This document shows positions 7,600-35,164 of a stretch of 64,000 bases of DNA, one piece after another. Location of the stretch: the NCBI RefSeq assembly GCF_003574315.2, contig NZ_AP025739.1:3286001-3350000 (forward strand), given 5' to 3'. How positions within the stretch are numbered: the stretch's first letter is position 1; every line of letters starts with the position of its first letter. The DNA is from Capsulimonas corticalis. Its GTDB lineage: Bacteria; Armatimonadota; Armatimonadia; Armatimonadales; Capsulimonadaceae. A program made the position numbers and the translations under genes. The notes beneath the pieces are model-generated. The model worked only from the letters and a program-made list of their open reading frames with translations, was not told the DNA's origin and ran no database searches.

Positions 7600-7734
7600 A
7601 ACTGCTTTCAGTGTACCCGAATGGGAAGCGCGCGAAGAATTCGCGCAACCTTTCATGAGTTTTGTCGTCTGACAAGGCATCCATGCTAAAGAAGGCCGCC
7701 CTCGCCCAAAGGTGTGGGAATTCACTTCCTCTGA

Positions 7735-7779
7735 CTCCCCCTCTCCCAAAATTGGGAGAGGGGGCCGGGGGGTGAGGGC
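7735..7779. repeat. Dispersed palindromic repeat, copy 1
   Basis: The core is CCCCCTCTCCCAA, four-base centre, TTGGGAGAGGGGG, followed by GCCGGGGGGTGAGGGC. A near-identical copy in the opposite orientation lies at 34786-34828. Here it sits in the intergenic space between the divergent mutS2 and DUF1571-like genes, so it is not a normal gene-end terminator. Confidence 0.8.
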
Positions 7780-17435: not shown

Positions 17436-18872
17436 TTATTTGATACGGTCCGCGAGAAGACGATTGACGACATCGGGGCGCGCCTTGCCCTTGGTGGCGC
17501 GCATGACCTGACCGGTCAGGAAGGCCATGCTCTTGTCGTTGCCGGCTTTGATCTTGGCGACGACGTCCGGGTTCGCTTCCAGGACTTTGTCGACTTCAGC
17601 GGCGATTGCGCCTTCGTCATCGACCGCCGCCAGCCCCTCGGCCTCGACGATCTCCGGAGCGCTCTGGCCCGTCTCGAACATCTTTTCCAGGACGGTCTTC
17701 GCGACGCCGTTCGTGATCTTGCCGCTGTCGCGCAGCACGATCAGATCGCGTAGCGCGGCGGGCGTCACTTTGGTCTGCGTGATGTCCTGCCCAGAGGCGT
17801 TCAGCAGACGCGCCAGCTCGCCGGTGACATAGTTCGCGATCGCTTTGGGATCGACGCCATCGGTCGCGGCGGCCTCATAGAAATCGGCGACCGAACGCGA
17901 CGATGTCAGCACGGCGGCGTCGTACGGCCGCACGCCGTACTGGGTGACAAAGCGCTCGCGCTTGGCGTCGGGCAGCTCCGGCAGCGCCGCGCGCGCCGCT
18001 TCGATGTCGGCGTCGTGGAAGTGCAGCGGGACCAGGTCCGGCTCGGGGAAGTAGCGATACTCCTGCTCTTCTTCCTTGAAGCGCATATGGTAGGTTTCGC
18101 CGCGCAGGTCGTTCCAGCCCAGGGTCTCCTGCCGGACGACGCCCCCTTCATCGAGCAGAGCGCTCTGGCGCTCGACTTCGTATTGCACGCCCTTGAAGAC
18201 GGACTTGAAGGAGTTCAGGTTCTTGATCTCGGTCTTGACGCCGAACTTGTCCGAACCGACCGGGCGGATGCTGAGGTTCGGCTCGGCGCGCAGGTGTCCT
18301 TCTTCCATCTTGCCGTCGGAGACGTTCAAGTAGACCAGGATCGTGCGCAGCTTCTCCAGGTACGCGCGCGCTTCTTCCGCGGAGTGCAGGTCCGGCGGGA
18401 ACTCAGTGACGATCTCCATCAGCGGCACGCCGCTGCGGTTGTAATCGACTTCGCTTTCGTTGCCGCCCGCATGGATCAGCTTGCCGGTATCTTCCTCCAG
18501 GTGAACGCGCCGGATATGCACGCGCTTCGACGAACCGTCCTCCAGCGTGATATCCAAGTATCCGCTATGTCCGATCGGATCGTCGTACTGCGAGATCTGG
18601 TAGCCCTTGGGGATGTCGGGATAGAAGTAATTCTTGCGCGCGAAGAGGCAGTCCCGCGACACCTGGCAGTTCAGCGCCAGCGCGGTGCGCAGCACCAGCT
18701 CCACCGCCAGCTTGTTCATGACGGGCAGAGATCCGGGAAGCCCAAGACAGACGGGACACGTGCGCGTGTTCGGCGCGCCGCCGAACTCATTGGCGCACCC
18801 GCAAAACATCTTGCTCTCCGTCAATAGCTCGGCATGGCACTCCATGCCGATGACCGTTTCGTAATTGCTCAT
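17436..18872 (-). CDS. gatB: Asp-tRNA(Asn)/Glu-tRNA(Gln) amidotransferase subunit B
   Basis: The 478-aa protein starts [20 protein letters not shown]. Its catalytic cradle contains the zinc cysteines in [21 protein letters not shown], followed by the usual [20 protein letters not shown]-like region (interrupted here by normal variation), a cradle domain and a C-terminal YqeY-like tail domain. GatB phosphorylates misacylated Glu-tRNA(Gln) and/or Asp-tRNA(Asn) for amidation. It is separated from gatA by 221 bp containing a multi-hairpin repeat. Confidence 0.97.
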
Positions 18873-18920
18873 AAGGGGTTTTATCCTAAGCGTGATGTTG
18901 CCGTTGGGGCGGACACATTA

Positions 18921-19069
18921 CCCCGCACTGAAGTACGGGGCTAGGGGTGGCTTCGCCACCGACCGTCCGTGCCGGACGGAGGAAAAGGAAACGTTGGCGA
19001 TTGCGCTCTTCCGTCCGGCACGGACGGTCGGTGGTGGAGCCACCCCCAGCCAGGTACTTCAGTGCCTGG
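18921..19069. repeat. Multi-hairpin inverted repeat (family A) between gatA and gatB
   Basis: Two arms of 60 nt (18921-18980 and 19010-19069) are inverted copies with seven differences and a 29-nt centre. Each arm consists of three small hairpins: CCCCG/CGGGG (or CCAGG/CCTGG) around CACTGAAGTA, then a GGTGG/CCACC stem, then CCGTCCG/CGGACGG. The CC-to-AG and GG-to-CT differences between arms are compensatory. A relative lies at 34875-35079. The 221-bp gatA-gatB gap holds nothing else recognisable. Confidence 0.9.
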
Positions 19070-19093
19070 TCTCAGCGCGTTGCGATTATTTAT

Positions 19094-20551
19094 TTACAAA
19101 CTCGCCCGTCGCGTGTGCCAGTCGGTTGACTGCTCGTAGGCATGGGCCGCGCGGAGCAGTATTTCTTCGCCGAAGGCGGGGGCCATGATCTGCAAGCCGA
19201 TGGGCAGGCCGTTGGTGAAGCCGCAGGGCAGCGAGATCGCCGGGATGCCGGCCATGTTCGCCGGGATCGTCAGGACGTCGCTCAGCTTCATCGCCAGCGG
19301 ATCGCCGGTCTTCTGGCCGATCGGGAAGGCGACGGTCGGGGCGGTCGGCGAGAGCAGGACGTCGTACTTTTCGAACGCCTGGTCGAAGTCGCGCTTGATC
19401 AGGGTGCGGACCTTTTGCGCCTTGAGGTAGAAGGCGTCGTAGTATCCGGCCGAGAGCGCGTAGGTGCCGAGCATGATGCGCTGCTTGACTTCGGGGCCGA
19501 AGCCCTCTTCGCGGGTCTTTTCAAACAGATCGATATGGCTGGTCGCGCGGGCGGTGCGATGCCCGAAGCGGACGCCGTCGTAGCGCGCCAGATTGGACGA
19601 CGCTTCGGCGGGGGCCAGAATATAGTAGGTCGGCAGCGCGTATTCGGAGTGGGGGAGGCTGACTTCCTCGGCGATAGCGCCGAGCGAGACGAGCTTGTCC
19701 ACGGCCGCGCGCACGGCGTCGGCGATCACGCCTTCGACACCCTGCGCGAAGTACTCTTTCGGAACGCCGATGCGCAGGCCCTTCACGTCGCCCGTCAGCG
19801 CCTTGGTGTAATCGGGCACGTCGCGGACGATGCTGGTGCTGTCCATGTCGTCGTGGCCGCTGATCGCGCCAAGAAGAAGGGCGGCGTCACGGACGTCCTT
19901 GGTGATCGGGCCGATCTGGTCCAGCGACGAAGCGAAGGCGATCAGACCGTAGCGGCTGACGCGTCCGTACGTGGGCTTGAGACCGACGACTCCGCAGTAG
20001 GCGGCGGGCTGGCGGATGGAGCCGCCGGTGTCCGAGCCGAGCGACCAGACGGCCTCGCCGGCCGCCACCGACGCGGTCGAGCCGCCGGAGGAGCCGCCGG
20101 GCACGTAGTCCAGGTTCCAGGGATTGCGCGTCGGGAACAGTCCGGAGTTCTCGGTGCTGCTGCCCATCGCGAACTCGTCCAGGTTCGCCTTGCCGACGAA
20201 CACGCTGCCGGAGGTCTTGAGCTTCTCGACAACGGTGGCGTCGTAGGGCGGGTGGAAGCCGCGTAGGATCTTCGACGAGCAGGTCGTTTCGACGCCGATC
20301 GTGCAGAGATTATCCTTGAGCGCCAATGGAATCCCGGCGGCGGCGGAGACGGTTTCGCCGGCGGCGATCTTGGCGTCCACGGCGTCGGCCTGCGCGAGCG
20401 CCTGCTCGCGCGTCACGGTCACGAACGATTGGACGCGGGATTCGACAGCTTCGACGCGGTCCAGAACGCTCTGGGCGACCTCGCGCGCGGAGATCTCTTT
20501 GGCGCGGATCTTGTCGGACAGCTCATGGGCCGTCAGTTCGAATAGTTCCAA
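19094..20551 (-). CDS. gatA: Asp-tRNA(Asn)/Glu-tRNA(Gln) amidotransferase subunit A
   Basis: This is a 485-aa amidase-signature protein. The catalytic Lys is Lys79 in PLALKDNLC; the signature GGSSGGS spans about 152-158 and [16 protein letters not shown] supplies the cis-serine and nucleophile serine. It releases ammonia from glutamine for the GatB reaction. The gene follows gatC by 6 nt, so the two are certainly co-transcribed. Length is normal for the family. Confidence 0.97.
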
Positions 20552-32004: not shown

Positions 32005-32132
32005 AAAACCTCGTCCAGAGCCAGCGCTCTTTTCATTGCCGACGGTAATCTGTTGTGCTATCACAATTATACTATGACAGCAGAGTTCTGGCAATGGGGA
32101 ATTTTACCTACCGCCGGCCTTCGCGCAACCCC

Positions 32133-32283
32133 TGGCAAACCCACCCCCGGCCTTCGGCCGACCCCTCCCGCGACGGGAAGGGTTTGTAAGATTGCCTCGT
32201 ACGAAAGCCGCCTGCGACATCAATCCGAATTACCCTTCCCGTCGGCGGGAGGGGTCGGCCGAAGGCCGGGGGTGGGTTTGCCA
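32133..32283. repeat. Long inverted repeat (family B) upstream of the GH36 gene
   Basis: Two arms of 51 and 52 nt (32133-32183 and 32232-32283) are inverted copies differing by one inserted G, with a 48-nt centre. Arms contain internal CGGCC-TTC-GGCCG and CCCG/CGGG hairpins. More degenerate copies of the CCGGCCTTCGGCC module flank it on both sides. It fills most of the 336-bp gap between the GH36-like start (32004) and the ArsR-methyltransferase stop (32341); the rest shows only an AT-rich possible promoter near 32040-32090. Confidence 0.85.
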
Positions 32284-32340
32284 GGAGGTGGCCGAAGGCT
32301 GGGGGAGGTCACTCGCGGCGCGCAAAGCACTGGGGGTAGA

Positions 32341-33345: not shown

Positions 33346-34776
<1,431 letters not shown>

Positions 34777-34785
34777 GAGGGGAGA

Positions 34786-34828
34786 GCCCTCACCCCCGGC
34801 CCCTCTCCCAATTTTGGGAGAGGGGGAG
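34786..34828. repeat. Dispersed palindromic repeat, copy 2 (after ahcY)
   Basis: This is the reverse complement of the copy at 7735-7779: GCCCTCACCCCCGGCC, then CCCCTCTCCCAA and TTGGGAGAGGGG around TT. Placed 10 nt after the ahcY stop, it could end that transcript here. Confidence 0.8.
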
Positions 34829-34874
34829 TAAGATGCCCCCCGGCCCCCACAGTTCACAGGGGTAGGTTTTTCCG

Positions 34875-35079
34875 ACCCCGCATTGAAATACGGGGCTGGG
34901 GGTTGCTTCGCAACCAGTGCCCAAAGGGCGCCCATCGTCCCGGACGGAAGACAAAGAACCGCATACGATTGCACTCTTCCGTCCGGGACGGACGGTCGGC
35001 GCGAAGCGCCCCCAGCCCCGTAATTTATTGCGGGGTCCTTAATGCGAAGCGCCCCCAGCCGGGTAATTTATTGCCCGGT
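34875..35079. repeat. Multi-hairpin inverted repeat (family A) between ahcY and metE
   Basis: It shares with 18921-19069 the CCCCG-loop-CGGGG-CTGGGGG module, a GC-rich TTC-loop hairpin (GGTTGC/GCAACC on one side, GGCGC/GCGCC on the other) and the CCGTCCCGGACGG end. The centre keeps GATTGCACTCTTCCGTCCGG, matching GATTGCGCTCTTCCGTCCGG in the first copy. A third, partial unit (35041-35079) has CCGGG/CCCGG stems. With the palindrome at 34786 it fills most of the 388-bp ahcY-metE gap; the last 85 bp hold the probable metE promoter (TACAAT near 35142). Confidence 0.88.
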
Positions 35080-35164
35080 ACGCGAAAAACCTACCGTTAT
35101 GAGACCCTTCACAGGGGCACACATATCACAGATTTATTTGTTACAATCGCAATTTAGGATAGCC

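Follow-up and report, generated by a model that had tools for sequence, protein, structure and literature searches.

Multi-hairpin inverted repeats of Capsulimonas corticalis share their arms with IS200-superfamily transposase genes

Two palindromic elements in the window

The window, meaning the whole stretch of DNA that was analysed, covers 64,000 nucleotides, bases 3286001-3350000 of the single 7,645,051-base contig of the 7.65-Mb genome of Capsulimonas corticalis. It contains two copies of an inverted two-arm repeat, here called family A. Copy 1 is flanked by gatB (17436-18872) and gatA (19094-20551), both on the minus strand and recognised by the Pfam domains GatB_N and Amidase. Copy 2 sits between ahcY (end at 34776) and metE (start at about 35165), both on the plus strand. 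An earlier note on this DNA had described arms of three mini-hairpins at 18921-19069, and folding of the arms as single-stranded DNA (ssDNA) confirms exactly three in each. The stem CCCCG/CGGGG that it placed in one arm and CCAGG/CCTGG in the other are found at 18921-18940 and 19050-19069, the change of GGTTGC/GCAACC to GGCGC/GCGCC is present in the sequence, and the second copy that it saw near 34875-35079, with CCCCG/CGGGG and CCGGG/CCCGG units, occupies 34876-35078. The features are as follows.

18920-19070, no strand: copy 1 of the family-A element, inverted two-arm palindrome (arm complementarity and ssDNA folding)
18921-18940, plus strand: left outer mini-hairpin of copy 1, CCCCG-C-AC-TGAA-GT-A-CGGGG, with C.A mismatch and TGAA loop (folding, alignment)
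18946-18960, plus strand: left middle mini-hairpin of copy 1, GGTGGC-TTC-GCCACC (ssDNA folding)
18963-18979, plus strand: left inner mini-hairpin of copy 1, CCGTCCG-TGC-CGGACGG, common to families A and B (folding, alignments)
19011-19027, minus strand: right inner mini-hairpin of copy 1 (ssDNA folding)
19030-19044, minus strand: right middle mini-hairpin of copy 1 (ssDNA folding)
19050-19069, minus strand: right outer mini-hairpin of copy 1, CCAGG/CCTGG, compensated relative to the left arm (covariation, folding)
34860-35096, no strand: inverted boundary motif around copy 2, GGGTAGGTTTTTC at 34860-34872 and GAAAAACCTACC at 35084-35096
34876-35035, no strand: copy 2 of the family-A element, inverted two-arm, with an extra outer-type hairpin extending to 35078 (sequence)
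35059-35078, minus strand: extra outer-type hairpin of copy 2, CCGGG/CCCGG, added to the right arm (sequence)

Copy 1: The left arm (18920-18983) and the right arm (19007-19070) are 88% complementary across 64 nt. The fold of either arm alone beats 200 of 200 dinucleotide shuffles (z -3.3 and -3.8). When the element is folded whole, one long hairpin of -73.3 kcal/mol (z -14) is preferred, whereas the separate mini-hairpins of both arms sum to about -38 kcal/mol. Given the far greater stability of the long hairpin, kinetics or strand exposure must be invoked to explain local folding.

Copy 2: The outer-type stems CCCCG/CGGGG lie at 34876-34895 and 35016-35035, and the left arm has a fourth hairpin module in the GTGCCC-AAA-GGGCGCCC region. 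The GGGTAGGTTTTTC motif has 27 genome matches with at most one mismatch, against 4 for a reversed control, and several of these adjoin A elements. The GGGTAGGTTTTTC/GAAAAACCTACC boundary motif is probably a separate repeat in which copy 2 is nested, and possibly a repeat that A elements enter generally.

Other repeats are also present in the window. At 32111-32305 there is a different long palindrome with 61-nt arms (90% complementary), a 73-nt spacer and GGCCTTCGGCC-type mini-hairpins, which probably represents another repeat family. A near-perfect short palindrome, CCCTCTCCCAAAATTGGGAGAGGGGG, occurs at 7730-7770 and 34793-34833 in opposite orientations, and a query with this stretch matches the related genome G001, taken from its equal contig coordinates to be that of Capsulimonas sp. 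RYN_270, about 40 times.

Copies, families and insertion sites

A DNA search of the genome gives 72 matches, merged by hand into 40 places (best 40 of 64 candidates scored). The repeats form two families: A, the window type, and B, with the outer hairpin CCCGGTTATGAAACCCGGG; the inner hairpin CCGTCCGTNCCGGACGG is common to both. From the matches and the transposase loci described below, 33 A arms (28 distinct) and 22 B arms (one from a second species) were taken. Six further core matches that lack the outer-hairpin pattern were left out, five of which are, by eye, arms with small changes. The inner foot of the arms reads CT[GA]GGG or CTGGGAG. Most family-B elements (L040-L058) have unlike ends: the inner hairpin of one starts CCGTCCG, and that of the other starts GCGTCCG, has a changed partner and precedes AAATGCC.

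A covariance model of the A arms, proposed in the earlier note as a check, finds at least 100 arms at E <= 0.01 across the genome (best 150 of 9437 candidates), clustered into at least 58 places, rather than few copies, and the covariation is significant. Among the 58 places, 35 are two-arm palindromes, a plus arm followed by a minus arm, with arm starts 81-100 bases apart. The dispersal of the arms is thus directly observed. With stricter filters, arms at E <= 1e-4 are found in 11 of 41 genomes searched, the host included, and an exact-pattern scan of genome contigs finds two contigs, both from the MAG Capsulimonas sp. RYN_270 (a genus in Armatimonadota). A fourth hairpin module is present on one arm in 7 of the 19 complete A elements, copy 2 included; these are 159-161 nt long, against 144-149 nt for elements lacking it. 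On the chromosome, 32 of the 58 arm places fall in three tenths of its length (764505-3058020), which also holds both arm-flanked transposase genes.

The elements are mostly intergenic, with 35 of 38 examined lying between called genes, two overlapping an ORF call and one at an edge. In a near relative, a family-B element occupies the gatA/gatB site and an unrelated palindrome the ahcY/metE site, so that differing elements are seen at the same sites in two species. A clean empty site was not found at the gatA/gatB or metE site of this relative. As it carries other palindromes at both window sites, insertion is deduced from difference and not from a scar. No target-site duplication was detected in 19 A and 8 B elements, in which flank matches resemble those of shuffled pairs (P 0.11 and 0.84). 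The 25 nt outside the outer hairpin of the 33 A and 22 B arms contain no conserved tetranucleotide that could be a guide or target, and the GT[AG]G foot is absent from the same arms.

Covariation and the outer hairpin

In the A arms, 99.0% of 515 cells are paired, against 87.5% (sd 0.8) in shuffled arms. Two-sided change occurs at 8 of 19 pairs, and 50 cells are changed on both sides compared with 13.6 after shuffling. None of 500 shuffles matches the A arms in percentage paired, two-sided pairs, two-sided cells or covariation score, and one of 500 equals their count of pair types. Sliding the partners by 1-3 columns drops pairing to 23-48%. For the B arms, no shuffle of 500 reaches the cells paired, the cells changed or the covariation score, whereas the two-sided pair count is reached by 66 and the pair types by 144. 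In the outer stems of the 19 complete A elements, one of which belongs to the second species, local pairing is 262/266 and arm-to-arm pairing 187/266; therefore, the local hairpin is what is kept.

In 32 of the 33 A arms the outer hairpin contains a C.A mismatch, and in all 33 it has a T(G/A)AA loop, although the latter count is partly built in, as the extraction pattern demanded [TC][GA]AA at this position. Of the 22 B arms, 18 have a T.C mismatch and all 22 have AT(G/A)AA. The earlier note had read this region as similar ten-base loops. It is better taken as a C.A mismatch, two covarying pairs and a T(G/A)AA tetraloop. Selection for unlike arms was also considered and rejected: the outer hairpins differ in 19 of 19 A elements, yet random re-pairing expects only 2.1 identical (P = 0.07, or 0.27 without duplicate pairs).

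The structural covariation is itself a direct observation, and of the selection for structure as RNA or ssDNA that had been proposed from it, the constraint stands. The statistics show that structure is constrained, not which molecule is constrained, because related copies and module exchange inflate them; covariation alone cannot separate selection on RNA from selection on ssDNA, from mutation that corrects hairpins or from the exchange of modules. The conserved C.A mismatch and the link to ssDNA transposases favour folded ssDNA.

If the elements were structured RNAs, they would be operon-like intergenic elements kept as terminators, attenuators or mRNA stabilisers, with mobility ancient or incidental. 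Their hairpins are strong, and both window copies lie between co-directional, possibly co-transcribed genes. Around the 38 elements, 16 gene pairs are tandem and 12 convergent, but the gaps of the window itself are similar (21 tandem, 9 convergent and 9 divergent, by crude ORF calling); with no clear bias against these gaps, a terminator role judged by gene orientation was set aside. Moreover, Rfam has no match at gathering score in the window, and wobble pairs make up 1 of 515 A-arm cells. Wobble pairs are not so rare in most conserved RNAs. The positions are also unconserved, as the near relative has other elements at both sites. An RNA function as the reason for these repeats is hence improbable, and an RNA role of single copies after insertion is possible.

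A second alternative is that mutation rather than selection makes the covariation, through template switching in hairpins or whole-module exchange between copies. This would suit the scarcity of G.T intermediates, the recurrent types into which the stems fall and the fourth or extra outer hairpin gained by some arms. On the other hand, the C.A mismatch, which template switching would correct, persists in nearly every A arm, and the T(G/A)AA loop in all of them. Because it leaves the transposase association unexplained, the mutational account competes as an explanation of the covariation only, and it is considered rather unlikely.

Transposases between the arms

The host genome has five Y1_Tnp places, the fifth being a fragment with a stop. 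The gene at 2171961-2172299 occupies the loop of a family-B palindrome, with an inverted-repeat score of 133 for the locus against 24 for the best of 50 shuffles. The gene at 2822448-2822777 is preceded by a complete A element and followed by an A arm, with a score of 168. The two other Y1 genes of the host (L061 and L062) are without inverted arms in the flank test. Around the family-A transposase, A copies form a cluster within 4 kb. In Capsulimonas sp. RYN_270, a transposase 88% identical to the family-A enzyme occupies the loop of an A palindrome that has the same two neighbour genes on either side. From their translations, we take these neighbours to be a lutC-like gene and one for DAHP synthase. 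Both the arms around a transposase gene and the sharing of one transposase at the same locus by two species are therefore directly observed.

The A and B enzymes match Pfam Y1_Tnp (PF01797) and score 82.4 and 62.3 with the NCBIfam IS200 transposase model NF033573 (cut-off 55). Both have the DHVH (HuH) and Y...Q motifs, and the sequence of the A protein is related to those of IS608/ISDra2-type transposases with solved structures. The Y motifs of the two enzymes, YIENQKEHH and YIKNQKQHH, fit Y---Q--HH, given as the signature of TnpA-Y1 subclass 1.2 (PMC6006769). No tnpB was seen between the arms. Near-identical transposase copies are absent, as the four host matches are the query itself and three proteins of 27-53% identity. 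A single-copy transposase is a REPtron-like habit, unlike the multi-copy expectation for IS200/IS605.

REP-associated transposases had been suggested as a search target, and Y1 transposases do lie between the arms; however, with the NCBIfam REP_Tyr_transpos model NF047646 they reach 30.1 and 24.8 bits, far below the cut-off of 80. The suggestion of REP/BIME-like mobilisation survives in a changed form, since transposases of the IS200/REP superfamily are found between the arms, but they are IS200-like, of 'subclass 1.2', and outside the GTAG-REP/RAYT class. A classical REP/REPIN system with a RAYT (TnpA-REP, class 2) would account for inverted intergenic pairs, one transposase per repeat family and the same locus in two species. 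The absent GT[AG]G foot, the motif Y---Q--HH in place of Y---NP and the low NF047646 scores make it very improbable.

Transposase loci in other genomes

The family-A enzyme was searched against 61 genomes, of which 33 have a match. The locus set consists of the best locus from 30 genomes and three further host loci, 33 in total, with full flanks in 24; at 9 further transposase loci the flanks end at contig ends, and these are outside the 24. Of the 24 Armatimonadota Y1 genes whose flanks are complete, 15 have inverted arms at a score of at least 40 and 17 at a score of at least 30, compared with none of 48 control window pairs taken at these loci. The 9 of 24 scoring below 40 include two host loci. 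Arm sequences vary by genome, and in the loci inspected they are again hairpin chains. Locus L068, from another family of the phylum (genome G022), shares its outer loop with family A, and its transposase flank gives 141 matches in that genome (best 40 of 71 candidates scored). The motif Y---Q--HH is exact in 19 of 25 proteins recovered from the 30 best-match loci. Among hairpins with a four-base loop, 18 of 48 in the transposase flanks have T(G/A)AA, compared with 1 of 16 in the distal flanks of these loci. The counts are suggestive of a phylum-wide loop signature, but they are pooled and dominated by few loci, and this reading was set aside.

The plasmid records with a match number 62, and three of them were followed. 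Two Bacteroidota plasmid genes with Y---Q--HH both have inverted arms, with scores of 46 and 61, against 26 and 29 for the best of 50 shuffles. The third, a Planktothrix gene without Y---Q--HH and beside a second transposase gene, has no inverted arms. The Persicobacter arm is found at eight places on its plasmid, most with a second inverted arm close by, and at one place on another plasmid of the strain. Besides the host, arm dispersal is thus seen in at least two replicons: G022 and the Persicobacter plasmid.

These loci also bear on the idea that the repeats are MITEs derived from an ordinary DDE transposon, which happened to be captured by Y1 genes or in their vicinity. Although the two-arm inverted-repeat form and the A copies near the family-A transposase would agree with it, there is no target duplication, and Y1 genes are enclosed by arms in many genomes with differing arm sequences. 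Chance capture of this kind is hardly credible.

Proposed mechanism and related systems

The repeats are very probably non-autonomous miniature derivatives of single-strand transposons with multi-hairpin ends. The autonomous form would consist of a three-hairpin arm, a HuH/Y1 transposase gene (IS200 superfamily, subclass 1.2 motif) and an inverted three-hairpin arm, and the repeats of roughly 150 bp would be the two arms with just about 20-30 bp in between. When a strand becomes single, for example as the lagging-strand template, each arm would fold into its mini-hairpins, and the arms would serve as recognition sites in folded ssDNA. The transposase may recognise the outer hairpin through its T(G/A)AA loop, conserved mismatch and constant linker, and its tyrosine would cut near the foot of this hairpin. 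The single strand would then be excised and reinserted without target duplication. We infer transposition in trans, the strand used, the cut sites and the hairpin that is bound. IS200/IS605 and REP transposases are both described as contacting loop or stem irregularities (PMC8266576), and the fixed loop and mismatch would be consistent with such contact by the predicted binding enzyme.

REPIN/REPtron systems with TnpA-REP (RAYT): The shared features are inverted pairs dispersed between genes and a cognate HuH/Y1 gene between the same repeats, with one repeat family each and a conserved locus. In contrast, REPINs have single-hairpin repeats with GT[AG]G and a transposase of the Y---NP class, whereas the repeats here have three, sometimes four, hairpins per arm without GT[AG]G, an outer hairpin with a T(G/A)AA loop and an IS200-like Y---Q--HH transposase.

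IS200/IS605 and PATEs: IS200/IS605 elements share a TnpA-IS200 with HuH and Y motifs, hairpins at both gene ends and in gene-free copies, and the lack of target-site duplication. PATEs of IS605-type transposons in Haloquadratum are likewise described as non-autonomous, with palindromes shared with the transposon and no target duplication (PMC3119063). They are described as lacking terminal inverted repeats, whereas the ends here are long inverted multi-hairpin arms, and the Haloquadratum transposons are given as largely of the IS1341 (tnpB) type (PMC3119063).

TnpA-Y1 subclass 1.2: Y---Q--HH, a short core and low copy number are shared with this subclass as described (PMC6006769). The 2018 survey lists it as REP 'no', with IS properties not shared (PMC6006769). 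As published it is free of REPs and of terminal secondary structure, whereas members here lie between inverted multi-hairpin arms with dispersed gene-free copies.

TIRtron/TIRYT: These are described as a Y1 transposase between long terminal inverted repeats, sometimes self-complementary and repeated in some genomes (PMC3733652). The survey places 20 of 26 TIRYTs in subclass 2.1 with HTH tails and reports a GGGGWSAS motif shared by most of their TIRs (PMC6006769). The TIRYT class, mostly subclass 2.1, is thus not the class found here.

Significance

In the open-access literature, no report of multi-hairpin repeats for subclass 1.2 or Armatimonadota was found. On balance, we lean towards regarding subclass 1.2 as a third lineage of repeat-mobilising ssDNA transposases beside IS200/IS605 and the GTAG-REP RAYTs, present in at least Armatimonadota and Bacteroidota. 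Its cognate repeats would be inverted mini-hairpin chains whose outer hairpin often has a T(G/A)AA loop, and they may have been missed because searches sought single hairpins with a GT[AG]G foot.

A poorly understood group of HuH enzymes thereby gains candidate substrates, and its function becomes directly testable in vitro. The theme of ssDNA transposons is widened, as their recognition ends may be strongly covarying hairpin chains and not single hairpins. Where an intergenic palindrome shows covariation, a Y1 gene between the same arms should be looked for before an RNA structure is called. In addition, the compensated stems around a fixed mismatch and loop would amount to a natural mutational scan of the enzyme's requirements.
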